The notes under the pieces were generated by a model. That model saw nothing but the letters and a program-made list of their open reading frames with translations, did no database searches and was not told the origin of the DNA. A stretch of 64,000 nt of DNA from Amaurobius ferox (Eukaryota; Arthropoda; Arachnida; Araneae; Amaurobiidae): contig OX578146.1 of assembly GCA_951213105.1 (NCBI GenBank), forward strand, positions 109,789,776-109,853,775. Reading direction: 5' to 3'. The translations under genes and the position numbers were made by a program. Each line of letters opens with the position of its first letter. The first letter of the stretch is position 1. Shown here piece by piece: positions 7,329 through 60,510 of this stretch.

Positions 7329-7404
7329 CATTTCTCCGATATGTGGCGCTACGTGACCAGTAACACTATGTATACGATCAGAGTTTTATCTAACGCCATG
7401 TTGT
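7329..7404 (+). promoter_or_regulatory. c1 promoter: CTCF-like element plus downstream conserved block
   Basis: CTCCGATATGTGGCGCTACG has its GGCGCT at 7545-209 relative spacing: the core sits at 7345-7350, 209 bp before the c1 ATG. About 90 bp, including GTAACACTATGTATACGA and TAACGCCATGTTGT, is conserved with c2 (14808-14885). The core resembles the CTCF consensus. No TATA box can be assigned with confidence in such AT-rich DNA. Confidence 0.8.
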
Positions 7405-7553
7405 GGATATGACACAGTCAACTGTACTCTTCTTGCATAGCTTTATTTTTTACAATCGACATTTTGTGCTAACATGATAAGAGTAGTTATTTTGTAGATT
7501 CGAAAGCATGATACAATATATTTATGAGTTGGATGTGTAAATAAATAACTGAA

Positions 7554-7620
7554 ATGAAGAGTTATATACGGATTGCTTTTATTAGCCTGACCTGTTTATT
7601 TGGAGGAGCTTCATCAGGAG
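7554..7620 (+). CDS. sDscam-beta: c1 exon E1: signal peptide
   Basis: The first ATG that gives a signal peptide: MKSYIRIAFISLTCLFGG then ASSG, with a short basic start, a hydrophobic core, and small residues at the likely cleavage site. The exon ends GGAG|GTAAGAC at phase 1 and joins the GAT-coded start of the Ig1 exon at 8847. It is closely similar to the c2 E1. The exon directs the Ig-fold receptor to the secretory path. Confidence 0.9.
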
Positions 7621-8846
7621 GTAAGACATCTATTTTATTTTCAATAACATTTATGAAATGATTTTAATGCCTTTAAATACCAAGTCCTTGCACATAATTT
7701 TAAATATGTTTATTTCTAAAATTGGATGTATATTTTTCTTTAAGATAACATTACTCATATGTGTGCACATAAATAAATTATTCAGTGTGAATACATATTT
7801 GAGAAGTGAGTTATATAATACTATATGAAAAAGTTTTGCTGTCTTATGTATATAATGTGAAATATTTATTGATGCCATACAGCAGTAGGTTGTTTGGTTT
7901 AGCTTAAAGCGATATGTAGTTATATGCTTCTATAGTTTATTAATATTTGCGTTGTAATATTTTTTAATTTTACTGTATTGTATGTAAATTTGAATGAAAT
8001 GTTGCTTATGTTGCATAGTATATATGGCAGATTTTACGAGGCTGATGCTTATAGTGCAATATTTGTAATGTTTTACGAAAGTTTGTCCAATGTTCACTTT
8101 GATTGCTTTTCGTGAGCTTTATGGTTTGGCTTAGATCTGAAAGTAATGAGGAATGTCTACAATTATTAATATTTTCAATTTTACTGTGTCCTATATAATT
8201 TTGAACAAAATGTTGCTTTTTAGATAGTGCACTTGACAGTGGTGTTCATGGACATGTTAATTAAGTTTTGCAATATTTACAACGTTTCATGAAAACATGT
8301 GAAAGTTTAAAATTTTCATAAGCATTATGGTTTGGTTCAAAATTGTAACTAATTATACAATAATTTATTATTTATATTGCAAAGTATTTGAGTTTTATAT
8401 TAATGATGATAAATTTGAAACAAAATTTTTGTACGCATACTATATTCAAGAGGTTTCAAAATTTGTTTTTTTTTACATTGTGCGATATTTTCCCGTTTTA
8501 TAAAATATCATAAGCATCTCATTTTATTTATATGTCATACTAATTTCTATAAAACTAATGTATATAAGGAAAAAAAATGTATTTAAGTCTTAGGTAAACT
8601 AAAAATGCTCAACTTCATATTATATTAAGATTCTCATTTAAAAGGATGCGCCATATATATTTAAAGAGAACAAATATTCATTTCATTTGAAACTTTCTGA
8701 AACTTTTCTTGAATATTCTTCTTTGTCGATGCATACTTATGTAGCGTTTTTAATTTAAATCAATTAAAATCTGTATTTATTTATAAGCCCAGAACCTGCA
8801 TAATATTTTGAGTCAGGAAGACTAAGAGTTGAATCTTCTATTATAG
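7621..8846. other. c1 intron 1
   Basis: AT-rich intron between signal-peptide and Ig1 exons. Several loosely repeated phrases (TTTTACTGT, AAAATGTTGCTT, TTATGGTTTGG at about 7990-8340) suggest old internal duplication. No exon or transposon seen; the minus-strand frame at 7651-7878 is not supported. Confidence 0.55.
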
Positions 8847-9128
8847 ATGCTCCGGTTGTTCCACCTTTTATGTTTCCACCTGCCTTAAGAGAAGGTGAGA
8901 GAGGCAGTGCCACTTGCACCATTCGATCTGGAGATACACCTGTGCAATTTAAATGGAAAAAAGATGGTCAAGATATCGTTGAATCCTCCAATATCGATAT
9001 TCAGTCGGTTAAAGATTATTCAGTTCTTTTAATCAAATCCGTGACTTCAAGAAGCTCAGGGAATTATACATGCATAGTAAATAATGCTTTTGGTAGCGAT
9101 AAATTCACAGCAGTTTTAACAGTTACAG
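8847..9128 (+). CDS. sDscam-beta: c1 exon E2: variable Ig1 domain
   Basis: 282-bp, phase 1-1 exon encoding one whole Ig domain like Dscam Ig7. It starts DAPVVPPFMFPPALREGERG. The B-strand Cys is in SATCTIRSGD, the core Trp in FKWKKDG, and the F-strand Cys in SGNYTC, followed by FTAVLTVT. Acceptor ATTATAG, donor GTATGT. The Asn-Tyr-Thr just before the second Cys is an N-glycosylation sequon. It is most similar to c2 and c3 Ig1. By analogy with sDscam it would form the membrane-distal recognition domain of one isoform. Confidence 0.95.
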
Positions 9129-11154
9129 GTATGTATTTTACAGTTCACTGAAATATGCATTTTATATTTTGCAGTTATAATTTTAATTTCTAATGAATCC
9201 ATTTTATGTTTTTCATATAAAACTAACTAATGTTTTAAAAATTCTATTGCCTATATAATATTTATTTTATTAGTGCTTTGCTTACATGAAGGTGACACCG
9301 ATTCTTAAAATATAAATTAAAGTACATAATTAGAGAATTTAATATGTATAATAAAACCTCCGTAAGTTTTGGAAATAGAATGTTGCTTTGAATGGATATT
9401 TTTGTGAAGCAAAAGAATACTTAACAGCCTATACGAAATAAGTCTAATTATGATGGATCATATTTTCTGTCCCTGAAGTTACATTTTCGACTGGATTACT
9501 AAATAATTAAATATACTGATGAACAATTAAATATAATAATTAAAATAAATAATTAAATAAATAATAGTTAAATAATAATTAACGATTAATAAATAATCAA
9601 ATATGCAAATATTAAATGTGTCAATTTTAAAGGATTTTAAATATTATTTGATTTAAACTCACAGAATAAATATATTTGAATCACACATATGCGATATAAA
9701 TGTATTGAATAAATGTGCATAAATGCCCAAAAATGCATTTTTAATCTAATCTTTTGCTATTTTCATCCAACATGATTTTAAAACTTATGTTTCAGTTTTA
9801 TAACTAATGCAAAACATATACCTGAATTTAATGAAAAACAGCAAAGTAAAATTGTTTTCTATACTATTACCAAATTACGCTATAAGACTTCAGGAAAAAT
9901 GTTTCTTATTGCATGTTTTTTATAAGAGGTTGACATAATTAAGAATTGTGTTAGAAAAGAACAATGTCTTCTTTTTTTTCTTTATATAATTGTAATGTCA
10001 TATGCAGTGTTAAATGATTGTTATGCCATATGCAGTGTTAAATAATTGTAATGTCATATTTAATTATGTAAATTGCCAGGAAGCGTATATTTGTGAATTT
10101 CATTAATTCAAAACTTTTAAAAGTATAAAGAGTGTTTCAATGGAATACCCAGACATTTTTCACGGAAGGCACAAAATATTTTAATAAATATAATTAATTA
10201 TTATTAATAATATATTTCTCATATTGATAGTTAATAGAATAAATAATAACAATAAGCAGAAGATGCGTTATTATGAAAATCTAGAGCAAGTTTGAATAAA
10301 TTAATTTTCTATTTAAAAATTTCTAGATATTCTAATGAGCTGTATTGTGCTCAGAAAGCGAAAATGATATACAGACCAAACCCATTAGTTCATTTTACAA
10401 ACACTTGTGAATTAAGTATTCCGAATGGGTAGATATAAGAATAAAATAATATTTGAACTACGTACAGCTCAAACTGCTGTTAAAGTAATAAAACTAAACT
10501 AACTTCGTTAAAAGTAGCCTATAACACGAAATTATTAGTGTCCACCGGTTTCGAAGGCGAGAAACAGACATTTTCTTCAAGATATAAAAATAGATATATC
10601 TGATTTAAAAATAGCAAAGGCGTTTGAAGCAGAGAAAGAAGGTTTTCAACAGTGAGAGAAGAAAAAAGAGATAAAAAACCAAGAAGGAAGGAACACGAGG
10701 TAGGACACAATGAAGGAACAGCAACCAAAAGGAAAGTGGACGTCCAACGAATTCAAAACACTTGTTTAGTGAGCAAAACTACGAACATAAGAACCCTATT
10801 AAATTAAAAAAAGTGACTAACAGGGAACCTTTTAATATTTGAAAGGTAACTTTTTAGCATTTAAACTGAACAGATAAAAATATTTTTTTCTGCTCACTCG
10901 TCTGGTATCATTCAATAGAATTAATAAATATAAGATTAAATTAAGCTTAAAATTGAGAAAAATATGATTAGAAATAATTTATATTAAAGGGCAAAATTTT
11001 TACATACATATTAATAGTAGTAATGCTATATAATTTTTAAATTTAGTGTTGATCCTTAGGCATCCCCTCTGGGTATGCCAGTGAAATTTCTCTGCAGACC
11101 TTATTTGTAGTTTGAATATATTTAATTTTATAAAATATCCATATTCATCAATAG
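9129..11154. other. c1 intron 2
   Basis: AT-rich intron without exons. It has TAAT-rich stretches at 9500-9620 and an imperfect repeat of TGTAATGTCATATGCAGTGTTAAA-like units at about 9990-10060, one of them reading ATGCCATATGCAGTGTTAAA. The 69-codon minus-strand frame at 10519-10728 has no domain. Confidence 0.55.
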
Positions 11155-11268
11155 CACCTCCTGAATGGATAAAAGAACCAGCTGATATTTTTACACAAGA
11201 AGGTGAAAGTCTTGAAATTGAATGTAATGCTTCTGGCGTTCCCGCTCCTGATATTAAATGGATTTTAG
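11155..11268 (+). CDS. sDscam-beta: c1 exon E3: first half of Ig2
   Basis: 114-bp phase 1-1 exon. The peptide is APPEWIKEPADIFTQEGE ... IECNASGVPAPDIKWILG, matching the A to C strands of Dscam Ig8 (PPxW start, GVPxPxxxW). Acceptor TCAATAG, donor GTAGGA. The intron interrupts Ig2 just after the core Trp, the same place in every cassette. Confidence 0.93.
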
Positions 11269-13503
11269 GTAGGATTTTTATTAATATACAAATGTAAGTA
11301 TATGAAATTGGTATAGCAGTAAATATTTACATTTTTATACTACTGTCTAGAAGAAGTATTGTTTTGGTAAAAATTTTTAAATTCGCGATTTGGAAAGTTA
11401 AGCACGCTTTAAGAGCTCCTAAACCAGTTTCGATGCCCATGGTTTGGATTGAACAGCAAAATCTGTATAATGATTGTTCTTTTTCAATGTGCAAAATTAT
11501 TTATCTTAATTATTTAATTATTAAATCGTTAATTGTTAAATTGTCTATCTTAATTTGAAATGAGCTATACAACCCTTTGTGAAAACTTGCTTGTTCCAAT
11601 TCCGTCTTAGAGTTTGGATAGTATTGATGTATAATCTGATTTATAACCTGATTTATGTTGTCAAGAACAAAAATACAGTCTGCACTGTAGAGGAAAGTGG
11701 ACCTAATTGATAAATTAAAAATAATTAAATGATCTAGTTTGGCACGAAAAGTATTCAGGCACGAAAAGTATAATAGACAAAGATTTGGTGAACCCACAAA
11801 AAGTATTACTACCGCCACTTCATATATTAGGGTTTATAATAATTCGGTAAAAGTATTTTTTAAAATTCTTTTTAACGCTAAATATTTCTCACTTTAAATT
11901 GAGTCAGCGATGCATATTTTCATTTCATATTTACCATAGAGAGCAAATTTTATAATTTGTCTGTGCTTTTTCTATAACAAAATCATATACATGTAGCATT
12001 GATGCTATGGTATTCCTGCAGTTTCGGGTTATATATGTTACCCTCAGAATTTTTTGTAAAATAAAACGTACTTAAAATTAGATAATGTATCAGAATAGTT
12101 TATTTTATATGTTTTACACAAAATTGTACAGAAGTACGCACTGAAGTTATAGCACTAACATTATTAAAAATTTTTTTACAGTAAATAAATCGTGCAATAT
12201 ATTGAGTTTTTCTGCGATCTAAGTCAATACAAGGTGAAACCAGTTTTACAGGTTTTTGAAAAATTTTCGGTACTCATATTTACAAATAAATCAATTATTT
12301 GAAAAGTATTATGGATTTATTTTACTATTCCTATAATAGATTCTTAAAATTTAAAAATTTAATTTATATGAAATTTAAATCGTAATACAAGTAATTGTTG
12401 CTTATATTTTTATTTTACCGAATAGTGTATTATATTCTCAAGAATGGCCGACTCTAGGCTTGAAAAGCGTATTTGTAACAACATCAGCTTTACAGAGTTT
12501 AAGTACTTTAAAAACATTTTTCGACTTTATTTTAATTTTAATAATTGTTTTAACATGAAATTAATTTAAAAATAAATAAAAAGCTGACGTGTCATTCAAA
12601 GTAATTTTATTTTAAATGTTAACGGTTCAAATCGATATTATTGAATTTATTCTTGAGCAAAACTATAAGATAAATTATAACTAATATTTAATTAGAAAAA
12701 ATTTCATTGAAAGATTAATTATATTCAAATTAATTTGAATAAAATTAATTAGATGAAAATAAAAATATACTAGAAATGCTAATGATGTAAATTCAGTTCA
12801 TTTGTCTGAAAAATTGTATTATTTAACTGCTTTAATATCTAAATATTATTCAGAAGCGAATATAGAAATATAAAAATTAGCTTAAATTAGTCTTTGAATC
12901 AATTTGAAAATTAAATGCTTTGTGTAACAGAATACAAGGTTGATTTAAAAGTCTGATTACAAGGTTGATTAAATCGTAAAAGTCAATCCAAATTAGAGTT
13001 AATTTAATCAATTTTGTATGCTGCTAAACTAACATTAATTAAACTATGTATGCTGCTAAACTAACTTTAATTAAACTATGTATGCTGCTAAACTAACATT
13101 AATTAAACTATGTATGCTGCTAAACTAACATTAATTAAACTATGTATGCTGCAAAGTATTTATTTTTGAGATTTTTAAAAATAGTTTTTCATTTTTGTTT
13201 ATAATTAATTGTAATACAAGTATAGTGCATTTAGAATTGTTCTGTAGAATTACGATTACTCGCTTATATTAAATAATGCATATTTTTCACATAGGAGCTG
13301 TATATGTAAAGATGTGCATAAATAATCTTAATCTGACTCATACAAGGTTGCTAGTTTGTTTTAGATTTGATATTTAAAAATTGCTTATTTAAAATTAATT
13401 AACTATTAAAATTAATTTACTAATTAATTACTTTAATTAATTAGTAGTTATGTTTATTTTATTGGTAGTTATATTTCTATTTGTTTTTTATTTATTTATA
13501 CAG
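11269..13503. other. c1 intron 3
   Basis: AT-rich intron with the tandem repeat listed separately at 13017-13152. No exon is seen. The overlapping frames at 11364-11558 (+) and 11510-11818 (-) lack splice-bounded or domain support. Confidence 0.55.
13017..13152. repeat. 32-bp tandem repeat, about 4.2 units
   Basis: Units start at 13017, 13049, 13081, 13113 and 13145, each beginning TATGCTGCTAAACTAAC and ending TTAATTAAACTATG. They are nearly identical, so the array is young. It lies in c1 intron 3. Confidence 0.92.
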
Positions 13504-13677
13504 GTAATGACGGAAACAATGTGATTTCGTCTGAAGCTTCTTCGTTAGTGAGGGTATCATCCAATGGAGTGCTTCTAATTGGCAAAGTAGATGCTTCTAT
13601 GAAAGGTTCCTACACCTGCGAGGCAAACAATGGATTTGGTAAACCACTTACAAAAACCATACAAATATCAGTTCGAG
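13504..13677 (+). CDS. sDscam-beta: c1 exon E4: second half of Ig2
   Basis: 174-bp phase 1-1 exon, acceptor TATACAG, donor GTGAGA. The peptide runs GNDGNNVISSEASS ... VRVSSNGVLLIGKVDASMKGSYTC EANNGFGKPLTKTI QISVRG: D/E strands, F-strand Tyr-x-Cys, then the G strand. It completes Ig2 and should splice to the first constant exon outside the window. It resembles c0, c2 and c3 E4. Confidence 0.94.
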
Positions 13678-14807
13678 GTGAGAGCTATCAAAATTCACTT
13701 GTCCCTTCTTGATGGTTTAAGAACGAAAATGTTGAGTAAGTTTCATGTCAAATGACTAGAATTTTCAAACTTTCGTTTATAAAACGTTTGTGGTTGAAAT
13801 ACGAACTATATCTATATATATATATATATATATAATATTTTGAATAGTTCATATGGTATTTGATGAATATTTGTACAAATAACGCAAATAGGTAGTAACC
13901 ATATTTTAGTATATTTTTAAAGATGTAAATTTTTTTAGTTCTATGTACTGAATATTAAAAAAAGTCTGGCCTATACAAGAATGTATTGCAGTTTTGACTG
14001 ATTATAAACAATCCACATTATATTTTCCAGAAATATTGGAAAAAATACCTCACGGAATTTGTAAGATATCACTTAAATATTTGAAATTCTTCACAACAGT
14101 TTTTTTTTTGATGGGGGGGAGGTAAGTTGTAACAAAGTGAGTGCAGAAATCCGTTGAGATTTATTGTATAATTAGATGTTTATTTACTGTCTGTTTTTGC
14201 TTTCTATGCTACTATTTGTGTCTCTTAGTAGACCCTTGCTCTTAATCATCATTTATAAATTTTATATCTCATTAATACCTTCATCATTTTAGTCTTGGTA
14301 TAATCGGTATTATGATTTGCTTATACTAAAATTGAACTCGACTGAAATTCATAATTTTTTTAATATTCTTGGTAAGATGTTATAAAATATTCTGAATCTA
14401 TAAAGAAATATAGTTTAACTTTGTTTTATGTGCCATGATTAGAGTGCAGCAATTGAATTACTATAAGTAATGTTAAACAGTTTTACTAAAAGCATTGACT
14501 TGTACAAAAGTTATTTTACTTTATTTCAGATTAGTTCATAAAAATATATTTTGTAAAATAAATATAATAAAATATATTATTAGTTCATAAAATTATAGTT
14601 TTGAAATAAAAAAATTGGCATTAGTGAATCGAATTCCAAATTTTATTCCATATGTTGACATTTGGAATAAAATGAATACTTGGACTGTTAATGATTTAAT
14701 GTAGCTACTTTAAACTTTTTATGACTGTTTAAGTTTATCACTTCTTTATTTATTGCATTAATTAATCACATAATAACAGTTGTTATATTCAGCTGTATAA
14801 ACTGACA
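13678..14807. other. c1-c2 spacer
   Basis: Non-coding, AT-rich, with a short (TA)n at about 13813-13834. No exon or transposon recognised. Confidence 0.55.
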
Positions 14808-14885
14808 TTTTCTCCGATATGTGGCGCTACACGACCGGTAACACCATGTATACGAACAGAGTTATACCTAACGCCATGTTGTCGA
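14808..14885 (+). promoter_or_regulatory. c2 promoter: CTCF-like element plus conserved block
   Basis: CTCCGATATGTGGCGCTACA, core GGCGCT at 14823-14828, is 209 bp before the c2 ATG, the same distance as in c1. It is followed by GACCGGTAACACCATGTATA and TAACGCCATGTTGTCG, again as in c1. Confidence 0.8.
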
Positions 14886-15031
14886 CACAACACAACTTGC
14901 ATTGTTCCTCTTGAACTACAAAACATTTTTCAAATGTGACATTTTGAATTAACATAATGCTTGTTATTCAATGAATTTTAATTGGATATTATATATTTGT
15001 ATGAATTTGATATTTAAAAGCGAGAGTTAAA

Positions 15032-15098
15032 ATGAAGAATTTCATTCTGACGGCCTTTATTACATTAACCTGTATATATGAAGATTCATCAGCAGGAG
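15032..15098 (+). CDS. sDscam-beta: c2 exon E1: signal peptide
   Basis: Starts MKNFILTAFITLTCIYEDSS then AG, a typical short secretion signal. Ends GGAG|GTAAGT at phase 1. Same length (67 bp) and same ATG-to-promoter distance as c1, so the two cassettes are recent paralogues. Confidence 0.9.
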
Positions 15099-16069
15099 GT
15101 AAGTTAATTTTACTTAAATATTAATTGAATGACTAAAAACTCTATATTATATACAATTATGTATATGTATCATATGTTTCAACCTTTAAAAGGGTTCTGC
15201 ATTGTTATTAAGGGATGTTATCGTTAAGACATTACTATTCTTAATAAGCAGAATGCATTTAAGCACTACATTTTAAACAATGTAAATAATAAAATATAAT
15301 TCTATAATAACCAAATGTATTTAAAAAAATAATTACATTGAAAAGAGCAAATTTATATACGAATATTTTTGAACAAGTATTGAAACAAAAAAAAGGCTTT
15401 CAGTACACGGTGTACTTAATGATCATTTTTCATGAACTAACTATTATTTTTTAAACTCTTTTTATTGGTATTTAATTAATTTATCGTTAAGGGTTTCATT
15501 GTTAAAATATAATGCAATAAGACTTACTTAAAAACCAATAAACTATTTGTAGCTAATAAACGCGACCTAATAAATATTTAGAGTATTTTGTATTTATTTT
15601 AAAATATTACTTGAATACAATTGAGAATTGTTTTGTAGTATTTGTGATTTGTATGTATTTATACTATTGATAAATATTATAAAATAAATTTCAATTTTCT
15701 CTTAATACTATAACACAAATAAGCACGAAATAGATGGTTATAAAATGATAAATTATAGTAGTGCATTTTGACTTGATGTTTTAAAAATTGTATAGAAAAA
15801 TATACTTATTAATCTGATTTAAAATTTTGTCGACTATATGAGTTGTACAAAAGTTTTTTAAATAAAGTCAAATATTTTTCAAATTGCTTTGTTTTATAGT
15901 TTTTAATAGCATTTATTTAGTGAACTTAATAGATATTTTAATTGCAATTTGATAATTCCACAGGTATTTTTGAATATATACGAGTAAATGTATCAATATT
16001 TTAAATTAAAAGAATATGGAAATGATCTCTTAATTTATGGACCATAAATATGTTAACTCTTTTTTACAG
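15099..16069. other. c2 intron 1
   Basis: AT-rich intron of about 1 kb. Nothing recognisable beyond simple A/T-rich sequence. Confidence 0.55.
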
Positions 16070-16351
16070 AAGCTCCTGTGGTTGCTAATTTCATATTCCC
16101 TTCGGCTCTCAAAGAAGGTGAAAGAGGCAGTGCCACTTGCACCATTAAATCTGGAGACAGACCTATACAATTTAAATGGAGAAAAGATGGGCAAGAAATT
16201 GTTGAATCCTCCAATATTGATATTCAGTCTGTTAAAGATTATTCAGTTCTTTTAATTGAATCTGTGACAGCTAAAAATTCCGGTAACTACACGTGTATCG
16301 TCACCAATGATTTTGGAAGTGATAGATTTACAGCAGTTTTAACAGTAACAG
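16070..16351 (+). CDS. sDscam-beta: c2 exon E2: variable Ig1 domain
   Basis: 282-bp phase 1-1 exon, acceptor TTTTACAG, donor GTATGT. The peptide runs EAPVVANFIFPSALKEGERG, SATCTIKSGDRP, FKWRKDGQE, YSVLLIESV, SGNYTCIVTNDFG. Both cysteines, the core Trp and the NYT sequon are present. Its protein is very close to c1 Ig1; differences cluster at the N-terminal edge and in the C-C' and F-G stretches. Confidence 0.95.
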
Positions 16352-17398
16352 GTATGTTTTATGAAATAATAATATGCATTTTGAGAATGTAATAAAAGTT
16401 TTAATATTTTTTTGTTAAATGTCTTGCATGAAATAAAAGAATATACTCCAATAAAAGTGTTTTAGAGAATTTTATCTTAAAATGTCTTGCTTTTATTAAG
16501 TTGACATTGATTTAAAAAATTGAATTGGAAATAAAATCATGGGCTCTTAATTAAAAACTTATGATACTTTGTTTAGAAATATATTAATTACAGATTGTAA
16601 AATTTATTTTACTATTAAATTAAAAAAAAGTGTGGAATGTATGATTTATATAATTTAAACATTCTTCCCCACCGTCTAATGTGTATGAAATTATATTTGA
16701 TAATATATTTTTGTTTTAGAAAGGTTAATATGCTAAACAAAATTATAAAAAATTAGTTACTCTTTTAAGACGGCTTATAGGTCTCGTATGAAATTTAAAC
16801 TCACCATTTAAAAATATTATATAAACTACTGAAACATAGTGTTTCAGCTTGAAAGATTTTGTATTTATTTATCACATTTTGGCCTATGAGCAGGCTGAAT
16901 AAATATAAAATATAACTTCCGTAAGGAATTTATTTTTCAAATATTTTTTATTTGAACTTAAATGTTTTACCTTTATAAACCTTTTTCTGGAACTTTATTT
17001 TCAAAAACTTTCAACCTTTGAATATGAAATAAAATATAATTTACTCAAAATTAATTTTTATTATAAATTCTAATAAAATACACTTTTAAATCACGTTATA
17101 TTACATATAATCAGTCCTAGTAAAATATTTATTGTGTATTGTATAAAATGTATCAATGATTGAATTTTTAACTTTTTTAAATAGATGTTATTGTATAGTA
17201 CTAACTTTTAAGAAATCGTGTATTACGTTCACATTTTATATGATCAGACGATAATCAAATTGCCTATCCTTCTAAAATCTTAATTTTTACTGTAGTTTTT
17301 ACAGCAGTAAATTTGAACATTTATGAGTAAGACAGTCTTAAGAGATACCTGTTTCTTATTTCAATTATAAATTTATTTAATTTTATAATTATTCTCAG
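16352..17398. other. c2 intron 2
   Basis: AT-rich intron, no exon or transposon recognised. Confidence 0.5.
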
Positions 17399-19407: not shown

Positions 19408-19702
19408 GTAATTTTTCACAACAAGAAAGAACGCAACTACTTTTTCTGTAATAAGATAAACCGTTATCAAAATATTGTAGTTTTTTAGAATATTGGGGAA
19501 GTAGTGTCTTTAAAACAGCACAAAGTTCCCAATTTAAATATGAAATTATTCATTTGGTAACAAAACACTGAAAATGCTGAAAACTTGATATACATTTAAA
19601 TAAGTATTTATTTTACTTAATATTTGAGCAATATAACGATGTATCTTGTATCAATGAATATAATTATGAGTTATGACTGAGCATTATAACTTGTTATTTT
19701 AG

Positions 19703-22290: not shown

Positions 22291-22320
22291 ATTTTGGCCG
22301 ATATGTGGCGCTGTGAGTTC
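22291..22320 (+). promoter_or_regulatory. c3 promoter: CTCF-like element
   Basis: TTGGCCGATATGTGGCGCTG, core GGCGCT at 22307-22312, lies 168 bp before the c3 ATG. Of the wider c1/c2 promoter block only a GACGCCATGTTT (about 22360-22371) remains similar. Confidence 0.78.
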
Positions 22321-22474: not shown

Positions 22475-22544
22475 ATGCATATTATACCGCTTTATCTTTG
22501 GATTACACAATTCATTCTACTTCTTAATGGAGTCAGAGGGAAAG
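22475..22544 (+). CDS. sDscam-beta: c3 exon E1: signal peptide
   Basis: MHIIPLYLWITQFILLLNGV then RGK; 70 bp, ends AAAG|GTAAGC at phase 1. It has a strong hydrophobic core, with cleavage likely near Gly-Val-Arg-Gly. It differs in sequence from c1/c2 E1 but is equivalent in position. Confidence 0.88.
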
Positions 22545-33378: not shown

Positions 33379-33404
33379 TAATATCACCAGGAGGCGCTTT
33401 AACC
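33379..33404 (+). promoter_or_regulatory. c4 promoter: CTCF-like element
   Basis: ATCACCAGGAGGCGCTTTAA, core GGCGCT at 33393-33398, 204 bp before the ATG. CACCAGGAGGCGC is the copy closest to the textbook CTCF core (CCACNAGGTGGCGC-like). Confidence 0.8.
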
Positions 33405-33596: not shown

Positions 33597-33675
33597 ATGA
33601 AAATCTACCTTTCGTGCTGCTGTTCTCTTGTAATTTTGTGTGCACTATGTACAATACAGTTTGTGAAAGGAAACG
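33597..33675 (+). CDS. sDscam-beta: c4 exon E1: signal peptide
   Basis: MKIYLSCCCSLVILCALCTI then QFVKGN; 79 bp, ends AACG|GTGAGT at phase 1. Unusually Cys-rich hydrophobic core (five Cys), removed on cleavage. Confidence 0.88.
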
Positions 33676-38729: not shown

Positions 38730-38760
38730 ATTTTGTCACTAAATGGCGCTGCAGTCACGG
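38730..38760 (+). promoter_or_regulatory. c5 promoter: CTCF-like element
   Basis: TTGTCACTAAATGGCGCTGC, core GGCGCT at 38745-38750, 198 bp before the ATG. Same orientation as all others. Confidence 0.78.
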
Positions 38761-38942: not shown

Positions 38943-39012
38943 ATGAGTAGAATCATACTTCAGTTTGTTGCTCTTATATTGGAAATCGGATACATATATG
39001 CAGATTTAGAAG
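38943..39012 (+). CDS. sDscam-beta: c5 exon E1: signal peptide
   Basis: MSRIILQFVALILEIGYIYA then DLE; 70 bp, ends GAAG|GTAAGG at phase 1. Hydrophobic core with one acidic interruption; cleavage probably after YIYA. Confidence 0.87.
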
Positions 39013-47921: not shown

Positions 47922-47950
47922 CATTTCTGCCCGTGGTGTGGCGCTACTAT
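47922..47950 (+). promoter_or_regulatory. c6 promoter: CTCF-like element
   Basis: TGCCCGTGGTGTGGCGCTAC, core GGCGCT at 47940-47945, 216 bp before the ATG. The left half (CGTGGTGT) departs most from the CANNANNT pattern. Confidence 0.75.
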
Positions 47951-48155: not shown

Positions 48156-48225
48156 ATGCATCCATTGCTTTGGATTTTGGCGACGTTGGTGGCCTTTCTG
48201 CTACAGGAGTGCTACTGCTCTGAAG
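48156..48225 (+). CDS. sDscam-beta: c6 exon E1: signal peptide
   Basis: MHPLLWILATLVAFLLQECY then CSE; 70 bp, ends GAAG|GTAGGT at phase 1. Strong hydrophobic core. Confidence 0.9.

Positions 48226-51224: not shown

Positions 51225-51228
<4 letters not shown>
51109..51228 (+). CDS. sDscam-beta: c6 exon E3: first half of Ig2
   Basis: 120-bp phase 1-1 exon, acceptor CTTTCAG. The peptide is SPPHWIIEPHDIQTSEGQAV, IHCKADGLPKPIVKWLKVTG. The donor is GTCTCT and runs directly into (CT)n(TA)n, so the microsatellite begins at donor position +1. This is a weak donor. Confidence 0.9.
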
Positions 51229-51297
<69 letters not shown>

Positions 51298-51375
51298 TGT
51301 ATAAAAGAATGAAAGTTAAAAAATTCCTGAAATCACACGAATAAGGCGCTATGCTGCACTACAATGTGGATTTTA

Positions 51376-52141
51376 ATATCATACCAGAAAAGTATAAAAA
51401 TGAAAGAAAGCAATATATCAAAGAATGGCTGGGGGGGGGGGAGGGGGTTGTGGCCCCCACTCCCCGGTTAAGCCAGCTTTGCGTCTAGACAACACTCCCG
51501 GAAGTCGATATATTGCACAAATATGAATACCGAAGTATCAAAAAATTTTTTAAAAAGGATTTTAAAAAAGGATTTTAAAAAGGAGGTTACAAAACATGAA
51601 AGTGTGGAGTACCCAGAAGACACGTATTTTAAAACTGTACTATTAGTTTAACTCTCACAAAAATAAAGGCAATAAGAAACAAACATTACGTTAGGGAGTC
51701 TGAGCCATCTTTACACAGGTTATGAATGAGTACACTCTTATATACAATAGATAATAACACGCAGATGGATTGATGCTGGATTCGTCATGGTGAATAGTAC
51801 ATCTGGGTTATGGTACAGTATCTACTTTGGTAATAAAAATCTATATGTTTGTTTCTTATTGCCTTTATTTTTGTGAGAGTTAAACTAATAGTACAGTTTT
51901 AAAATACGTGTCTTCTGGGTACTCCACACTTTCATGTTTTGTAACCTCCTTTTTAAAATCCTTTTTTAAAATCCTTTTTAAAATTTTTTTTGATACTTCG
52001 GTATTCATATTTGTGCAATATATCGGCTTCCGGGAGTGTTGTCTAGACGCAAAGCTGGCTTAACCGGGGAGTGGGGGTCACAACCCCCCCCCAGCCATTC
52101 TTTGATATATTGCTTTCTTTCATTTTTATACTTTTCTGGTA

Positions 52142-52147
<6 letters not shown>
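51376..52147. repeat. Large inverted repeat (foldback-type), arms about 305 bp
   Basis: 51376-51686 is the near-perfect reverse complement of 51845-52147 (ATATCATACCAGAAAAG at one end, CTTTTCTGGTATGATAT at the other). A 158-bp unique spacer separates the arms. Both sides abut TA microsatellites. No ORF. It could be a foldback/MITE element or a local palindromic duplication; the arms differ by few changes, so it is young. Confidence 0.92.
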
Positions 52148-52232
<85 letters not shown>

Positions 52233-52699
52233 TATTTTCAAATTTATGTGTTAACTTTGACGAGAACATGCTTTACATTGATATTTTGATATTTTCAAAT
52301 AATTAAATGACACACAGTAATGTAATGTATTTCGTATTGTACAGAAAACAAAGAGCACCAGATAAATACTATTATAGCATTTAGAGTACAACTAATATTT
52401 ATTAAAATATGAAATTACAAATCTATCACTATGATTTACACCATTTTCTTTATTAAAAAATTTATTTGGCTATGAAGGACTTTTTATCATAAAAGAAATA
52501 ATTCTTGACAGTTACTTTCCTGGGTTAAAATTTTTGCTTAATTAAACGAAAAAAAAACATCAACAAACTAAAAATCCGTATAAGTAGAAATCTTGTTACA
52601 TTTATTTTATAACATTATTAATTACATGAATTATTGAAATACTGTTTTATGACAGATACGTGTTAAAAATATACTCACCTAAAAGACAATTAATTTTGA

Positions 52700-52743
<44 letters not shown>

Positions 52744-53379
52744 TATATATATATAACTTTATATATATATATATATATAAATAAAAATTGAAGGATTTTA
52801 ATCGAAAATTATGCATAAACTACTGTATGTACAAAAAAACCCATCTCTAGCATATCTGTTACAAATGAGTAACTATAGGCCAAGACTAAGGATAAAGATA
52901 GAAGGTAACATATCACTACAATGGAAAGGGGGATGAGAAGAATATTAGGATTCAAAAATCACAATTAAAAGTATATAAAAGTAAATAAAAATAAAACTCG
53001 GCAAAAATGAGAATAGGCAATAATAATCAGCTCAAGATAAGAGATTAAGAATAGAGAACAATCAATTGAAACTACTCAAAAAATGGCGGTTAGTTCGAAA
53101 TTGCATTCTCATCAGGACAGCCATAGAATTCAAATTAAAACCGATAGAATAGCCAGTTTCTGACAATGGCGATAGTATTTAACTATAGACACCATTGGAA
53201 CTGTCTACTAGCTAGTGGAAGGAGAAAAATAAATCAATTGAATTATACAAATCTGAAAAACAATACCTCCTCGAACAGAAATATGAAATCACAAGCATAG
53301 CACCTATATATATATGTATATATATATATATATATATGAATATACAATGCACTCTGGTTAGGATCGCCCTGACATTGAA

Positions 53380-53690
53380 GATAATAACTTCCATAGACCC
53401 AATTCGCGCTTATTATGTGCTCGTCAGCAGATATATACTACGGTAACAAGAAAATTTGCTTTGCATCCCACTTTTGTGGCACATAGCTGCTTTCTATGTT
53501 CTACAATGCCCAAAAATGTACTAAATTGTGGGGTACATAACAAGTTTTCTTTCCGCCATTCAATCATAGGTTCTTTTACGCTGATGAATGCATAATAAGT
53601 GCAAAACTAGTCTATGGATACTGCAATGAAAGCGAGATCGTAATTCTGGAAACACACCGTATAGGCGGGTTCTTTGGGTATAATATTATT
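53380..53690. repeat. Dispersed repeat family R3, copy c (tentative)
   Basis: Shares GGCACATAGC and a TTTACGCTGATGA...CTAGTCTATGGATACTGCAA... order of phrases with 26090-26440 and 29515-29950. Highly diverged; ends uncertain. Confidence 0.4.
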
Positions 53691-54384
53691 AGTTTGAAAA
53701 ATACTGATTTTAATTTTTCTTTGATTTCACAAAATCGTGTTCATATATTTGAAATTAAAATTAGGAAAATATTGCAGTTCTAACTCAGTTAAAAAGGCAA
53801 TATATATTCCCCTTTTTCTATTGATCACTGTTGCATATGATTTAATTATTACTTGAAGATTTAGCTCTTTTCTCTGTATATATCTTTTGTATTATAGTAG
53901 GAATGTCTGGAAGAGCACGTTTGAAAATAATTGAGGTTTTTAGGGAAGATTTCAATAATATTAATTACATGTGTTGAAATCTAATTTGCATCTGCATTTG
54001 AATACATTTTTTAATGCAACGTATGAAAACTAAAGCAAAATGGCATTAATTATTATGTGAGTATTTATGATGGACTATTTAAGTACAATTACATTGAATC
54101 TGGAAAAATAGGAATTATTACTATATACTTTATTTTATCTAGCTTTGCTCATTTTGTTTATTGGGCCAATTTTTTATTTTAGTTGCAATTATTTTCAATG
54201 TGGATTGATTTTGAATAAGCTTTAAAAACAGCATTTAAGTATTTGATTAATATCTATTGTATTGAATTGTGTAGTTTGCAGTTACTCAGTGAATGAATTA
54301 AAATGCCGTTGCAGTTAATGTATGAATCTTCTTTAAAATATTAATTTGAATTATTATAAATCTGTGATATATGTTTACTTCCAG

Positions 54385-54549
54385 AAAATGAAGAAAGAAT
54401 AATAAACAACGATAATCACTTCTTTCTCTTCGAAAATGGAACAATATCTATTCAAAGTATCAGAAACAGCGACAAGGGTACATACAAATGCGTTGCCACA
54501 AATGGAATAGACAAATCTTTGGAACGCAGTATAACAGTATTAGTTCATG
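54385..54549 (+). CDS. sDscam-beta: c6 exon E4: second half of Ig2
   Basis: 165-bp phase 1-1 exon, acceptor CTTCCAG, donor GTAAGA. The peptide is ENEERIINNDNHFFLFENG, TISIQSIRNSDKGTYKC, VATNGIDKSLERS, VLVHG. Intact. Confidence 0.92.
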
Positions 54550-55146
54550 GTAAGATTTTAAATTCAAACTTGTGTTTCAGAATGAATTAAAATCTTTATT
54601 TTTAGAAGCTAGAATAGAATCCAGTTTGCAGAACAGCTATTTAATTAGGAAAGTCTGAAAATTTTTTATAAATATATTCACAAATAACAATGTAGTATAC
54701 TAATAAATAAAATTTTTATGGATTACAGTATATGATTCATTATTGCGTCTGTATTTTATTTGCATACATTATTTATATAATACTTAGATAATAATGTTGT
54801 ATGAATACATGATTTATTTGTAATATTCCATTGCACATTCTTTTACTAATTGTATATTTTACTATATTATAAACAATGCACAGTTGAAGGGACAGTTATG
54901 GAATAAAATGTTATGACATGAAATTTTATGCAACATTTAGATATGGAATGAAATGTTATGATGTTGGAATTACACATATTACAATTAGTTTTATTAAATA
55001 ACGTTTTTTATTCAACGAAAAAAAATGTTGATTAAATGGTTCAAATTTAATTTTATATTTTCAATACATTTAAAATTCACTTTAAGTAATATGAAATCGC
55101 TTATATTTGCCACATGTGTATGTAAATATTTTAAGCTTTTTACTCG
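54550..55146. other. c6-c7 spacer
   Basis: AT-rich. A GGAATGAAATGTTATGA-like phrase repeats at about 54897-54965. No gene. Confidence 0.5.
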
Positions 55147-55175
55147 AATTTTCTCCACTACGTGGCGCTAATAGT
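55147..55175 (+). promoter_or_regulatory. Extra CTCF-like element upstream of c7 (copy 1)
   Basis: TTCTCCACTACGTGGCGCTA, core GGCGCT at 55164-55169. It is 370 bp upstream of the copy placed at the normal distance and 556 bp from the c7 ATG. No signal-peptide exon follows it before copy 2. Confidence 0.72.
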
Positions 55176-55516
55176 TCCAGTGTTTCACATCATATCAAAT
55201 ATTTTTTATTTATCATGGTATATAAATATTACTGGGTTTTGTATCACACGAGGAATAAAAATTCATCGTAGTGAAGGCTGTTGATATTTATACAACAGCA
55301 CAGTTCATTATTTTATATTATAATATTTTAGAAAGATTTAAGAATTAGAAAAAAATAAATTTTGCTTTCGCAGTTTAATATTTGCTTAAGCATTTAATAC
55401 ATAAATTTGCGAAAAAAGTATATTGTAATATTTCATTTGTATATAGTTGTTATGTTTCACATTTTGTTATGAGAATGCTTGACTGATAAACCAATAAATA
55501 TTTACTCTTTATTTCA

Positions 55517-55545
55517 ACAGATATCCACAACGTGGCGCTGCTTTA
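55517..55545 (+). promoter_or_regulatory. c7 promoter: CTCF-like element (copy 2)
   Basis: GATATCCACAACGTGGCGCT, core GGCGCT at 55534-55539, 186 bp before the c7 ATG, within the usual range. Confidence 0.78.
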
Positions 55546-55719
55546 TTTCTAAATGCTTCATATAATGTTTTTGTATGGTTTAGTAATGATTTACCAAACT
55601 TAAAATTAGCATGCAAAGGTGTTTGTTATTACACACATTATGTGGGAAGTTAACAGTATTTTAATGAATCGGTTAAGGATACCTTGAATTTTTAACTGAA
55701 GATCTTGTAATTGAAAACC

Positions 55720-55774
55720 ATGCTGTACTTCTATCTTTGCTTCGCCATTCGTATTGCGATCTCTTATTCTGAAG
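55720..55774 (+). CDS. sDscam-beta: c7 exon E1: signal peptide
   Basis: MLYFYLCFAIRIAISYSE; 55 bp, the shortest E1 here, ends GAAG|GTAAGT at phase 1. The hydrophobic core is short and broken by Arg, so secretion strength is less certain. Confidence 0.83.
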
Positions 55775-56965
55775 GTAAGTCATTTAAATTTGTATACTAT
55801 TATATATAATAAACTCACAATAACAATTTATACTATAGAATAACTGTTACCATTCATCTAAAATGTGTGAAAACCAATTATTTTAATTATATTTTGTAAA
55901 ATGCAAGTTTTGTAATTAGCTTTTATTGATTATACAAATCATTGGCTCTATTTATAAATAAACAGTACAGTTGAAATAAGTTATTTTGGAGTTAAACGTT
56001 TAATGAAATAAAGTTAGCATATAAATTTTTACATTCTTATTACTTTTTATTTTTATTAAATGAATAACAAATTATGTGTGACTGAATGACCGTTTAAAGT
56101 AAATAATAAATTTAATATTTAGATTAAAACATGAATTAACGTATTATATGATAAGACTATTATTATTTAAAATATTTTATTTCAGGTTATGTCGAAATGA
56201 AATTTATCTCGATATTTTAAACATTTTAGATACAATTTCAATGATTAATGCACCGAAGGATAAAATATATTTTATTATATTTCTATAAGCGATTGTTCAA
56301 GCTAAAGATTTAATTCAAAACAAAGCTTTATGAAGAATTTTTGTACATACTTAATATTGCATTTGATAACAAATTAAGCTGTCTATAAAATGATATTTGA
56401 GTACTTATTTTATATTGCATGCTTATATGAAGTGTAAATAGTTTCTTATTGATCATTCAGTTGAATTATTCCATTGTTAAAAAAATGCCCATTTTTTAAA
56501 TACAGTGAACTTCCGATAATCTGACACTTTCGGGATTTCAGCAGTGACGAACAACCAAATTTGCAGAATTATCAGATGTCAAACTAAAATGGAATAAAAA
56601 AATAAGAAAATTAATTTAAAACAAAATAATGGATAATAAATGTGATATTCATTTGTCTGTAACGTTGTACAGACTGGACTACATTATACAGGCTGTGAAA
56701 CATTTTTATTAATTAAAACATTTTAAAGTTGACTTCAATGAACATATATATATCTGCATATAAAATCAGTTAGTCTATTACAGTAAATGCACTACTTCAG
56801 TACAGCCAAATGCCGTTAGAGAGGCGTACGGGACTATCAGGCGTGCCGAATCATTAAATGTCGGATTAGAGGAAGTATAATGCACTCAAAATGTTACTAA
56901 TATTTTACTTGTAAAATGTACTTGTCAAAAATATGACAGTGATTTTTGATTTCATTTTTATATAG
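55775..56965. other. c7 intron 1
   Basis: AT-rich. 56505-56590 and 56810-56875 (CCGATAATCTGACACTTTCG; AAATGTCGGATTAGAGGAAG) are GC-richer, of a kind seen in tigger/pogo-like or other repeat ends, but I cannot assign them. No exon. Confidence 0.45.
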
Positions 56966-57253
56966 TTTCAGAGCCGCCCGTGATACAGCAATTTACCTTC
57001 CCCGAGTTCTCGACTGTGGGGCAGACGGCTGTCGTCACTTGTGCAACATCCCAAGGCTCGAAACCCATTGATTTTAAATGGGTAAAAAACGGCAAAGATA
57101 TAGAAAACGTTCCAAACACGTCAGTGTTACACCAGGCGGGATTTTCTGTGCTAACTGTTGGACCTGCAAGTAAAGACAATGTAGGGAATTATACTTGCAT
57201 AGCTAAAAATACATTTGGAAAAGATTCTCACACGACAGCGTTTATTCTAAAAG
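56966..57253 (+). CDS. sDscam-beta: c7 exon E2: variable Ig1 domain
   Basis: 288-bp phase 1-1 exon, acceptor TTATATAG, donor GTAAGA. The peptide runs VSEPPVIQQFTFPEFSTVGQ, VVTCATSQGSKP, FKWVKNGKD, FSVLTVGPASKDNVGNYTC, AKNTFGKDSHTTAF. Complete Ig with the NYT sequon; GC and codon use are a little higher than in neighbours near its start. Confidence 0.95.
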
Positions 57254-58110
57254 GTAAGATGCTAAATATTATTTAAATTTATATAAAATGTTTACATACA
57301 GTGCACAGAACGTGGCCTTGTGCAATAATAATAAGGAAAATGCAATGCAAATTGTTGAGCAAATACAATGGTTGTAGCACAATGTCTTATATTATATTTG
57401 CCGAGAAATTTATGTTGTGCTTTCATTGTGCTTAAAATATTATTCTGAAGAACAATATGCTGTGTGTATTAGTGATATTAATAAGCGTTTTGAAATGGTG
57501 ATTATAAGTTTTTTATTACTCTAGTTCATAAAGATTTTTTCTATTGTTGCTTCAGGTTTAAAAATTAGTTTAAGTACAAAACAAATATATGAAGTTTAAT
57601 TTTAGTGATTAAAATTGACTATTTAAGCATCATTTCTTTATATATTCTGCTGCATTTTATTTAATTAATACATTTTAATTTTAAACGGATGTATTAGTTT
57701 ATTAAACTTCTGAAAATCATATAATTTATTATTTATGAGTCCTTTGGTGACTATATGCATCATTTTCACATAATATGTATCAATTTGTAAATTATTTTAA
57801 ATGATTAGCTTTGATGAAGTAACTTAACAGCAATAACGTTTACTGGGTTTATTCACTATGTAATTGAAATAGCTTCATATACTTATTTTTTATTTAGTAT
57901 TTTAAATGAAAATAGCTATATAAAATATGAAATAAAAAAATAGGCTATAGGGTCTTAAATTAAAATGTACGTCAAAGCAATAAAATGCAATGCAGTGTAA
58001 TTTATATCATAAAGCAACATCATACTGCACTGTTATATAAGTGTTATTAAACTTGCCGTTCTATTATTACTTCAAATTCTTCTAAAAATATAACTTCATT
58101 ATTTCTATAG
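57254..58110. other. c7 intron 2
   Basis: AT-rich intron, nothing recognised. Confidence 0.5.
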
Positions 58111-58230
58111 AGCCACCGATATGGGCTCAAGAACCACAAGATGTTCATGTGACCGAAGGACAGTTTTTAGAGTTGCTATGTTCCGGAACAGGACATCCTT
58201 TCCCTCAAGTGACGTGGACAAAACTTAAGG
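58111..58230 (+). CDS. sDscam-beta: c7 exon E3: first half of Ig2
   Basis: 120-bp phase 1-1 exon, acceptor TTCTATAG, donor GTATAA. The peptide is EPPIWAQEPQDVHVTEGQFL, LLCSGTGHPFPQVTWTKLKG. Intact landmarks. Confidence 0.92.
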
Positions 58231-59755
58231 GTATAATTTTGCCTCTATTATTTTTGCATTTTTGTTTTTACATGGTTATATTTAGGTTGGTCAAATCTTT
58301 ATATTAAATTTTGGCCCACTTATACTGAGTCGATTTTCTTGAAATTTTACAGATATACGTACTTGTGATGACCAATATTTCATCAAATTTGAGTTGACCC
58401 TCTATTCTTATTCCTTCCTTGAATCATGCCCGGAATGACCCGCAAAAATCCCACTGTTGTAAGATTGTTAAAACGAGTCCAACATGCAGTTTCGCTTCTC
58501 CTTCTCTCTCTTTTATATAGTTTCATTGTTGTAAGATAGTTAATAAGGAAGTTCAATATTTAGCTTCGCTTCTATATATATTATATAAAAGAGAAAATTT
58601 TCAACACATAATACTGCTCATGGTGAGTTAGGGATTAATGTTTTCATATGTAAAAATCCTCTATAAATTTATCTTTTAAAAGCTTTGATTTGATATCTGA
58701 TGAAAAATTGCTTGCAAAAACTAAAACTAAAAAGTATGAAATTAAATATATAAAAAAAACTTTCTAAGTTACACGGTTTTAGTAAAATGCACTAACAAGT
58801 AAAAAATAATTTTTAGTTATCCCAGCATTCTTGGTACTATGTGACTAAAATACAATCGTAGGGGCCTTATGAAAGGATTATATTCGGACATTAAAGTTAT
58901 TAAAGGAAAAAACTTGTTCCAAAGCGCAATAAAACTGCTGATTGTGATAACAGTGTCTTTATTAAACAACCGGTTTAACAAAGTTTTAGTTGTTCAGCGG
59001 TTTAAGAAAGTTTTAGTTGCTTAGCGGTTTAAGAAAGTTTTAGTTGTTCAGCGGTTTAAGACAGTTTTAGTTGCTTAACGGTTTATCAAAACTACTTCAA
59101 AACAACTGTTGTCACCTATTCTACGCATGTGTGCTTTTATAAAGGAAATATTGAAATTATTGCTAGTTATATATGTTTTAAACAAATTGCCATTGCTATG
59201 AAGCTTTAACACTTGATTGATGACAAATTGAATGAAATATTAACGACTTAGCAAGTTTTTGGAATTTTTCTTAGCGGTTATTTAAGAGCAGTGAAAAAAA
59301 GTTGTTTCAGTTCAGATGCACGAGTTATTTTCGACCTGCAAAAGTTTAATGTATTGTGACGATATTAGTATGTTCAAAATATGATTATCTGGTTTGTGAA
59401 TTCGTTGAGTATTTAATTGTTGTGTCACTGTATGTGACAATTGTTTAAAGATTTTTCCAGGTAGTTAAAGTTAATATTTTATTTTTAGCTCCTGTTAACG
59501 TTAATTTTTGATTTTAATAAAGCTGAAGTACTAGAGAAGTTAATATTTGAGTCAAAATAAATGTCTTCATAAATAGCTTAGCACAATATAACAGAAATTT
59601 ACTTATAAATTGATAAAACTGTTGCGAAATCTTAATTATGTTAGCTAACAATTGAATTCAAAACAATCGAAAGAGTATTTTGTAATAATGTTATGTAAAC
59701 ATTTCAATAAAAGTTATCTATAAATTGTGATATGAATTTTTTTTATGCCTAACAG
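58231..59755. other. c7 intron 3
   Basis: Contains an eroded R2-like stretch at about 58300-58470 (TTGAAATTTTAC, GGAATGACCCGCAAAAAT) and the 27-bp tandem repeat at 58971-59088. No exon. Confidence 0.55.
58971..59088. repeat. 27-bp tandem repeat, about 4.4 units
   Basis: Units begin at 58971, 58998, 59025, 59052 and 59079 with CGGTTTAAGAAAGTTTTAGT plus TGTTCAG or TGCTTAG; the two endings alternate, so the real period may be 54 bp. Confidence 0.9.
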
Positions 59756-59926
59756 GTGATGAAAAGGCCATTTTGTCTCACCCATCAAGGTCAAATACAG
59801 AAATTTTCCCTAATGGTTCTCTTATTGTGTATAACGTGAAAAATGAAAATGCTGGTAATTATCAATGCGAAATATCTAATTTTGTTGGGGAAGATTTAAA
59901 GAAAATTGTTCGGATATCAGTATCTG
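59756..59926 (+). CDS. sDscam-beta: c7 exon E4: second half of Ig2
   Basis: 171-bp phase 1-1 exon, acceptor CCTAACAG, donor GTAAGA. The peptide is GDEKAILSHPSRSNTEIFPNG, here split: GDEKAILSHP, SRSNTEIFPNGS, LIVYNVKNENAGNYQC, EISNFVGEDLKK, RISVSG. Intact. Confidence 0.93.
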
Positions 59927-60480
59927 GTAAGATTAAGAATGTGTGGTTTTTTTTTACTCAAGCTTACTTATACAATTTAAAAGATAATTATTATTACGTG
60001 CGATTGTTTAATTTTTCGTGCATTAATATAATTAAAGATGTTTTCTAGAATTTTCTGTTCTTTTGCAGATTTTATAATGTTTGAATTTTTGTATGTGATT
60101 ATGGAAATAAAATATTGAAAAGTAAAAGACTGTCTTCTTCATTTAAGTCTTTTGTATTTTTCTGATTATAAATAATAGCAGTTAGAAATGGAACACTTAT
60201 AAAGTGATAAAAGTTTCAAGTTTAAGTACATCAATGTTCATGTGAAATAATTAATAAATTGTTTTTAATGATTGAATATTTTTTATTTCAATGATTTATG
60301 AAATGAAAAGCAACGCTACGCTTTTGGTTTCATGCGATGTATGCAAAAATTGGGAAATATTTAAAATTTATTTTTTATAAATATGCATGTAATTAATCTG
60401 TGTAATTACTGTTTGTGTAATTTTCAGTACGATTTTTCCTTTGAATTTTAATATATTTATTATCATTTGCATTAGTTTCC

Positions 60481-60510
60481 TATTCTGTCACCAGAAGGCG
60501 TTAGGGGTCA
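60481..60510 (+). promoter_or_regulatory. c8 promoter: CTCF-like element, variant core
   Basis: TGTCACCAGAAGGCGTTAGG, core GGCGTT at 60497-60502, 171 bp before the ATG. The left half CACCAGAA fits well but the core has T in place of the second C, so binding may be weaker. Confidence 0.7.

Follow-up and report, generated by a model that had tools for sequence, protein, structure and literature searches.

The window analysed here is a 64,000-nucleotide stretch of the 3.56-Gb genome of the spider Amaurobius ferox (C15:109,789,776-109,853,775 in its own assembly), which almost certainly belongs to an sDscam-beta gene with tandem cassettes of exons E1-E4 and alternative promoters. All eight signal-peptide exons (E1) predicted in the window carry a CTCF-like element on the + strand, with its GG core 168-216 bp upstream of the ATG. 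We propose, with a probability of roughly 0.6, that this CTCF-like site at each promoter is likely bound by spider CTCF or a relative and marks a looping anchor or insulator for promoter choice. For neuronal self-recognition, flies splice Dscam1 and vertebrates use CTCF-directed choice among protocadherin promoters; a mechanism of this kind for selecting promoters may have evolved on two separate occasions.

A preliminary description of this DNA had placed one shared motif on the + strand upstream of eight signal-peptide exons. All eight GG-core positions and their strand proved correct, and each site precedes a plausible predicted E1 with a phase-1 GT donor (Table 1). The motif as written there held for part of the set: five of the eight promoters fit CRNNANNTGGCGYT exactly, whereas the copies at 33393, 47940 and 60497 depart from it. 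With two further exact matches at 55156 (+) and 7392 (-), the window contains seven, compared with a shuffle mean of 0.15. The hexamer GGCGCT occurs nine times on the + strand (seven promoter copies, 51345 and 55164) and once on the - strand (44593); the two copies away from the promoters that had been noticed earlier, 51345 and 44593, were found again, but the one at 55164 had been missed. This last copy and the promoter 7 site form a tandem pair 370 bp apart, the 55164 copy being the upstream one. The motif is more frequent than chance would give: TGGCGCT occurs seven times in the window, six of them at promoters, against 1.49 expected, and none of 100 shuffles equalled this count. At the strong non-promoter matrix matches 46334 and 6100 and at the 55164 site, a search over 420 bp gave no ATG-led hydrophobic frame followed by a phase-1 donor.

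As a caveat, an identical 15-mer is found in cassettes 1-3, and cassettes 1 and 2 are close paralogues. In a de novo expectation-maximisation (EM) search upstream of E1, run on six promoters with cassettes 1-2 dropped, the element came out as the top 14-mer, as the preliminary description would predict, and its score was reached by none of 60 dinucleotide shuffles and none of 40 random interval sets. In a larger control, one of 400 random six-interval sets from the window, where low-complexity DNA is present, reached this score, and the 48-bp positional range of the element was matched by 0/400 random sets (11/400 single-stranded). At width 10 the search left the element for a different word in cassette 8; restricted to cassettes 4-8, it did so in cassettes 4 and 8. 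Among cassettes 3-8, sequence identity is 0.65 within the motif and 0.37 and 0.26 in the flanks, with a random expectation of 0.30. The motif is conserved while its flanks are near random, indicating that it is not a mere leftover of duplication.

The likeness to CTCF was examined with a hand-entered version of the JASPAR matrix MA0139.1 and with a hand-written panel of 25 motifs, a limited substitute for TOMTOM in which any GGCG-containing motif gains score. When both strands of the window were scanned with the CTCF matrix, the promoter sites ranked 3, 4, 5, 6, 8, 12, 13 and 48 of 127,964; scores like that of the rank-48 site (cassette 6) would turn up 10.6 times in a window by chance alone. 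In the 400 bp upstream of E1, on both strands, the top matrix match was the element in 8/8 cassettes and always on the + strand, a placement equalled by 0/20,000 random interval sets and 0/1,000 column-permuted matrices. Moreover, even when used alone, the matrix columns preceding GGCG set the promoter GGCG apart from 85 others (p ~1e-4 without cassettes 1-2). The two CTCF forms rank first of the 25 motifs, in agreement with the earlier expectation that CTCF would lead a motif comparison, with E2F third and YY1 fourth. Further, a site matrix built from the 20 unique cores among 30 sites, including those outside the window described below, gave a mean column r of 0.77 against CTCF, best at zero shift and in the forward orientation (0/5,000 permutations). 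The unique cores agree with CTCF in C at -8 (19/20), A at -4 (15/20), GGCG (20/20) and a purine at +6 (18/20). Judged with these hand-entered matrices, the element thus matches the CTCF core above chance and above other motifs. A spider CTCF homologue has been reported (PMC7128011), CTCF has been called ubiquitous in arthropods on the basis of 100 surveyed insects plus ten outgroup species, chelicerates among them (PMC5094011), and its motif of ~15 bp is described as alike across species (PMC10983669). When human CTCF was used to query a protein collection, the organism-named matches among the 120 listed of 1,071 were all vertebrate.

The element recurs beyond the window. We fetched 100 kb on each side and then 50 kb more, 314 kb altogether, in which positions are given as R coordinates (R31356 corresponds to about -68644 of the window). 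E1 exons were picked by hydrophobicity and splice donor, blind to the motif, although the procedure was designed with the eight window E1 already in hand. In 24/26 cassettes the motif went with the top candidate, and the second candidate was taken for window cassette 1, whose E1 was known already and resembles that of cassette 2, and for R305550, where the choice was made with the motif in view. At R80268 an ATG in the same frame, 12 bp ahead of the top candidate, was used instead, and the E1 of the first cassette of the array (R34856) lies unusually far, 8 kb, upstream of its E2. In the first fetch, the highest-scoring CTCF-matrix match in the 400 bp preceding the top E1 candidate was a + strand GGCG site in 13/13 new cassettes; among five further cassettes, the same held at the top E1 in four and at the second E1 candidate only in the fifth. 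In total, GGCGCT stands on the + strand 150-300 bp upstream of E1 in 24/26 cassettes (17/18 outside the window), the two exceptions having GGCGTT and GGCGCC, although these cassettes do not represent independent counts. Control zones lacked it, with 0/26 at 0-149 bp, 0/26 at 301-450 bp, 0/26 at E2 and 0/21 at E4, and no - strand GGCGCT was present in the E1, E2 and E4 upstream zones tested; the whole 314 kb contains 31 copies on the + strand and six on the - strand.

That the motif should also occur in other sDscam arrays was confirmed in most, but not all, of the clusters sampled. In a second array on the same contig, it was found in 8/8 cassettes, one of them at the second-ranked E1 candidate. 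A genome-wide search (at least 150 matches) located clusters of Ig1-like exons on other contigs at C10:49 Mb, C10:162 Mb and C13:136 Mb, where + strand GGCGCT was present in four of seven sampled cassettes and in four of the five with a recognisable E1. Both samples at C10:49 Mb were positive, at -190 and -173, the latter being a 20.9-bit CTCF site, as were two of three at C13:136 Mb, at -198 and -262; one positive there, C13c, rests on an E1 with a weak donor. By contrast, 0/2 samples were positive at C10:162 Mb. The rule therefore holds fully in two C15 arrays and, as far as lightly sampled, in two more clusters, but not in a fourth. The distance from site to ATG has a median of 202 and a range of 152-299 (n = 30 sites found; the three site-less sampled cassettes are not in n), and all 30 sites lie on the strand of the gene, a uniform direction that tandem duplication would also be expected to give. 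The tandem Ig1-like cluster at C10:161.97-162.10 Mb, without the element in its two sampled cassettes, is perhaps another Dscam class.

With regard to the identity of the gene, array 1 comprises 18 cassettes in the fetched DNA, nine upstream of the window, eight inside it and one downstream, followed by one immunoglobulin (Ig) and three fibronectin type III (FNIII) exons recognised by Pfam. Frames past the FNIII exons were read as transmembrane and cytoplasmic exons, as reading frames for which Pfam gave nothing meaningful. Array 2, in which eight cassettes were scored, begins 70 kb past the window. Pfam I-set domains were found in 8/8 window E2 exons, and the E2 of cassette 2 matched, among other Ig proteins, titin first, followed by the Dscam chain 3dmk (residues 632-711) and the structure 7Y73, the latter reported as the Ig1 of sDscam-beta3v7 from M. 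martensii (PMC10154414). Among 26 close proteins, the five named by organism were all from spiders (Trichonephila, Argiope, Larinioides, Oedothorax and Stegodyphus). The locus has the layout of sDscam-beta, with tandem E1-E4 cassettes (Ig1-Ig2, E3 being seen in passing) and shared Ig, FNIII, transmembrane and cytoplasmic exons. Based on the Ig exons, the sDscam structure matches and the spider homologues, the window is almost certainly spider sDscam-beta. Ig1-like exons continue in tandem at C15:109.73-110.46 Mb, with at least about fifty matches there, and further sDscam arrays probably follow past the fetched DNA on C15. In addition, in some closely related cassettes the forward site is followed ~50 bp further downstream by an inverted CATGGCG, at 7392-7405 (-), 14870-14883 (-), ~22361 and R96589 (-); this second element looks CTCF-like or YY1-like and was not seen in cassettes 4-8.

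Table 1 CTCF-like elements and cassette exons of the sDscam-beta array in the window. Distances run from the GG core to the predicted E1 ATG; ranks refer to the window scan with the hand-entered CTCF matrix.
Feature	Position	Strand	Remarks
Element, cassette 1, CCGATATGTGGCGCT	7336..7350	+	rank 13; -209 from ATG 7554
Element, cassette 2, CCGATATGTGGCGCT	14814..14828	+	rank 12; -209 from ATG 15032
Element, cassette 3, CCGATATGTGGCGCT	22298..22312	+	rank 3; -168
Element, cassette 4, TCACCAGGAGGCGCT	33384..33398	+	rank 6; -204; near canonical
Element, cassette 5, TCACTAAATGGCGCT	38736..38750	+	rank 8; -198
Element, cassette 6, CCGTGGTGTGGCGCT	47931..47945	+	rank 48; -216; weakest copy
Element, cassette 7, CCACAACGTGGCGCT	55525..55539	+	rank 4; -186
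Second element, promoter 7, CCACTACGTGGCGCT	55155..55169 (core 55164)	+	rank 1, best of the window
Element, cassette 8, TCACCAGAAGGCGTT	60488..60502	+	rank 5; -171
E1, cassette 1 (predicted signal-peptide exon)	7554..7620	+	ATG, hydrophobic stretch, phase-1 GT donor; second-ranked candidate in its interval
E1, cassette 2 (predicted)	15032..15098	+	ATG, phase-1 GT donor; top candidate
E1, cassette 3 (predicted)	22475..22544	+	ATG, phase-1 GT donor; top candidate
E1, cassette 4 (predicted)	33597..33675	+	ATG, phase-1 GT donor; top candidate
E1, cassette 5 (predicted)	38943..39012	+	ATG, phase-1 GT donor; top candidate
E1, cassette 6 (predicted)	48156..48225	+	ATG, phase-1 GT donor; top candidate
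E1, cassette 7 (predicted)	55720..55774	+	ATG, phase-1 GT donor; top candidate
E1, cassette 8 (predicted)	60668..60734	+	ATG, phase-1 GT donor; top candidate
E2 (Ig1), cassette 1	8849..9130	+	Pfam I-set
E2, cassettes 2-8	starts near 16072, 24587, 34883, 41420, 50018, 56971, 61727		Pfam I-set
E4 (second half of Ig2), cassette 1	13500..13694	+	
Other E4	near 19696, 31999, 38317, 47313, 54384, 59755		
E4 of a cassette with its E2 upstream of the window	near 4603		

Several results weigh against CTCF as the bound protein or against a role in promoter choice. In CTCF sites the G at -3 is almost invariant (98% in the matrix used), but it is kept in just 5/20 unique cores, with T in nine and C in four. 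In addition, A stands at -7 in 11/20 unique cores, and columns -1 and -6 agree less with CTCF (r 0.27 and 0.58). A GTTCR module at +10..+14, outside the known CTCF core, is present with at most one mismatch in 11/26 promoters (nine perfect), compared with 7/385 other GGCG sites; its spacing from the GG core is fixed, as at R57756, R243110 and R312633. The originally claimed CTCF match survives the whole-window and column-permutation tests but not at every column, and owing to the weak G at -3 and the GTTCR module we name the element CTCF-like rather than a proven CTCF site. The matrix alone is also not promoter-selective: in 264 kb, scores above 9 bits were obtained for 19/21 promoter sites, 27 other + strand sites and 29 - strand sites. 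The C10:162 Mb samples had a recognisable E1 in one of two cases, the C13 sample without the element had none, and in the C13b sample the GGCGCT at -198 scores poorly, the best matrix match being another site on the - strand.

Other copies in the genome and the missing reverse partner point in the same direction. The 15-mer CCGATATGTGGCGCT is found at ten array promoters and has 47 genome copies (reversed control 0), of which 37 lie outside this locus. The ~66 kb separating the last promoter site of array 1 from the first of array 2 gave no convincing reverse partner: above 11 bits, the - strand there has four matches within a single G/C run (11.7-15.9) and, at R227300, one of 12.6. With 22.4 bits, the strongest reverse site (R31356, -) stands upstream of the array, 3.2 kb ahead of its first promoter site. 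Same-direction sites are also what tandem duplication yields, and CTCF motif orientation has been reported not to matter in flies and echinoderms (PMC13317027). A related word, CCACNAGGTGGCGCT, has 293 exact copies genome-wide compared with one for its reversed control. Of eight such loci read, L001-L003 have common flanks, as do L007-L008, and L006 resembles them; because many copies lie in repeats, the count of 293 was not used as evidence of CTCF sites. CCACTAGGTGGCGCT sits in dispersed repeats of the genome, and repeats may spread CTCF-type sites.

Because the element agrees with that of the vertebrate protocadherins in number, direction, distance and core, we propose that it serves as a promoter anchor in promoter selection. 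Spider CTCF or a close zinc-finger relative would bind the forward site ~200 bp upstream of the E1 ATG, and the bound site would mark every promoter as an anchor for looping or as an insulator. Regulatory DNA shared by the array would then be contacted by its promoters in competition, and firing of one of them would decide which cassette may head the transcript. CTCF binding at the element is likely, as judged from its match to CTCF, while the looping and promoter-choice role goes a step further and draws on the analogy with vertebrate clustered protocadherins.

Among the alternatives, the element could be CTCF-bound and yet an ordinary promoter-proximal site, providing openness or insulation with no part in cassette choice. 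The 37 further genome copies of the 15-mer (reversed control 0), the lack of a convincing reverse partner between the arrays and an orientation that follows from duplication all suit this explanation, but we consider it unlikely, because position, direction and one site per promoter are kept on three large contigs despite near-random flanks in divergent cassettes. Less probable still is that another, perhaps chelicerate-specific, zinc-finger factor, whose fingers at the GGCGCT end would be CTCF-like, acts on a longer composite CCnnnAYGTGGCGCTRsnnGTTCR, an explanation that overlaps with the close relative of CTCF allowed for in our proposal. It would account for the conflict at -3 and for the enrichment of GTTCR at promoters; however, cassettes 4 and 8, the 55164 site and the C10b sample have near-canonical CTCF sites in the same place and direction (55164 further upstream), and the columns match CTCF in one register only. 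Moreover, in the CCACCANGTGGCGCT context genome-wide, in which repeats may be included, -3 is G in 14, T in four and A in two of 20 places. Another familiar factor, YY1 (AANATGGCGGC) or E2F (TTTSGCGC), appears very improbable. Both have GGCG in common with the element, and in three cassettes the - strand shows a CATGGCG resembling a YY1 site ~50 bp further downstream; YY1, however, requires ATGG and E2F a TTT run, whereas 5/8 window copies have GTGGCGCT, and neither accounts for the C at -8 seen in 19/20 unique cores. YY1, E2F and the 21 further motifs of the panel all scored under the two CTCF forms. Finally, a functionless likeness left by recent tandem duplication, which the 85% identity of cassettes 1 and 2 at positions +6 to +60 and the identical 15-mer in ten copies might suggest, is rejected as contradicted by the divergent cassettes, whose motif is conserved between near-random flanks (cassettes 3-8) and whose E2 proteins are just 34-40% identical to that of cassette 2 (cassettes 4-8).

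The best reading of the spider elements is thus that they are independently evolved CTCF-like promoter sites. More tentatively, chelicerates may have independently evolved CTCF-directed choice among tandem promoters for neuronal self-recognition receptors, with GTTCR possibly a chelicerate-specific extension of the anchor. If true, oriented CTCF logic would have a second, independent instance, found in arthropods, where the example of the fly suggests that motif direction is irrelevant, with the same anchor protein, direction and distance as in vertebrate protocadherins but in an unrelated family, about half a billion years apart. The promoter layout shared by sDscam and protocadherins is already known, and the literature covered names no promoter selector. 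No report of CTCF at sDscam promoters was found among the papers listed in searches of open-access literature, partly judged by title and with subscription papers mostly outside its range; where sDscam and CTCF are co-mentioned there, CTCF appears solely in a reference title.

In M. martensii, sDscam-beta has tandem four-exon 5' cassettes with a promoter before each (Yue et al. 2016, PMC4835542). Two sDscam-beta6 cassette promoters were reported to be active in S2 cells down to ~300 bp, and in transcripts begun at a given promoter the constant exons may be joined to the cassette of that promoter or to cassettes further downstream (PMC4835542). The promoter elements described there come from Drosophila-program predictions and S2 deletions, and the main text makes no mention of CTCF, a motif or an insulator (PMC4835542). 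The spider element would fall inside the stretch corresponding to the ~300 bp active promoter.

The conserved sequence element (CSE) of protocadherin promoters is described as a CTCF site in forward orientation that includes a CGCT box, stands ~200 bp ahead of the variable-exon ATG and pairs with reverse sites at a shared enhancer (PMC4978886, PMC7811963). The spider gene differs in being an Ig superfamily Dscam of an arthropod rather than a cadherin, and in having a short signal-peptide exon as its first exon. Its element differs from the CSE in the GTTCR module of 11/26 promoters and the weak G at -3, and the observed/expected CpG ratio of 0.92 in the window does not point to a methylation gate like that reported for protocadherins. 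The convergence with protocadherin logic suggested by the preliminary description is partly supported: the resemblance holds in number, direction, distance and CGCT core, and no convincing reverse-oriented site was seen in the ~66 kb between the arrays. In both systems, alternative first exons are spliced to shared constant exons and a CTCF-type motif is present (PMC4978886, PMC7811963). Like the CSE, the spider element stands in nearly every promoter, one for each alternative promoter with two at promoter 7, in the forward direction and ~200 bp upstream of the ATG. Loops and insulation have been measured for the tandem CTCF topological insulators of Pcdh, Igh and beta-globin (PMC7087399), whereas the spider system is known here from its sites alone; with these insulators it has in common same-direction tandem sites at alternative promoters.

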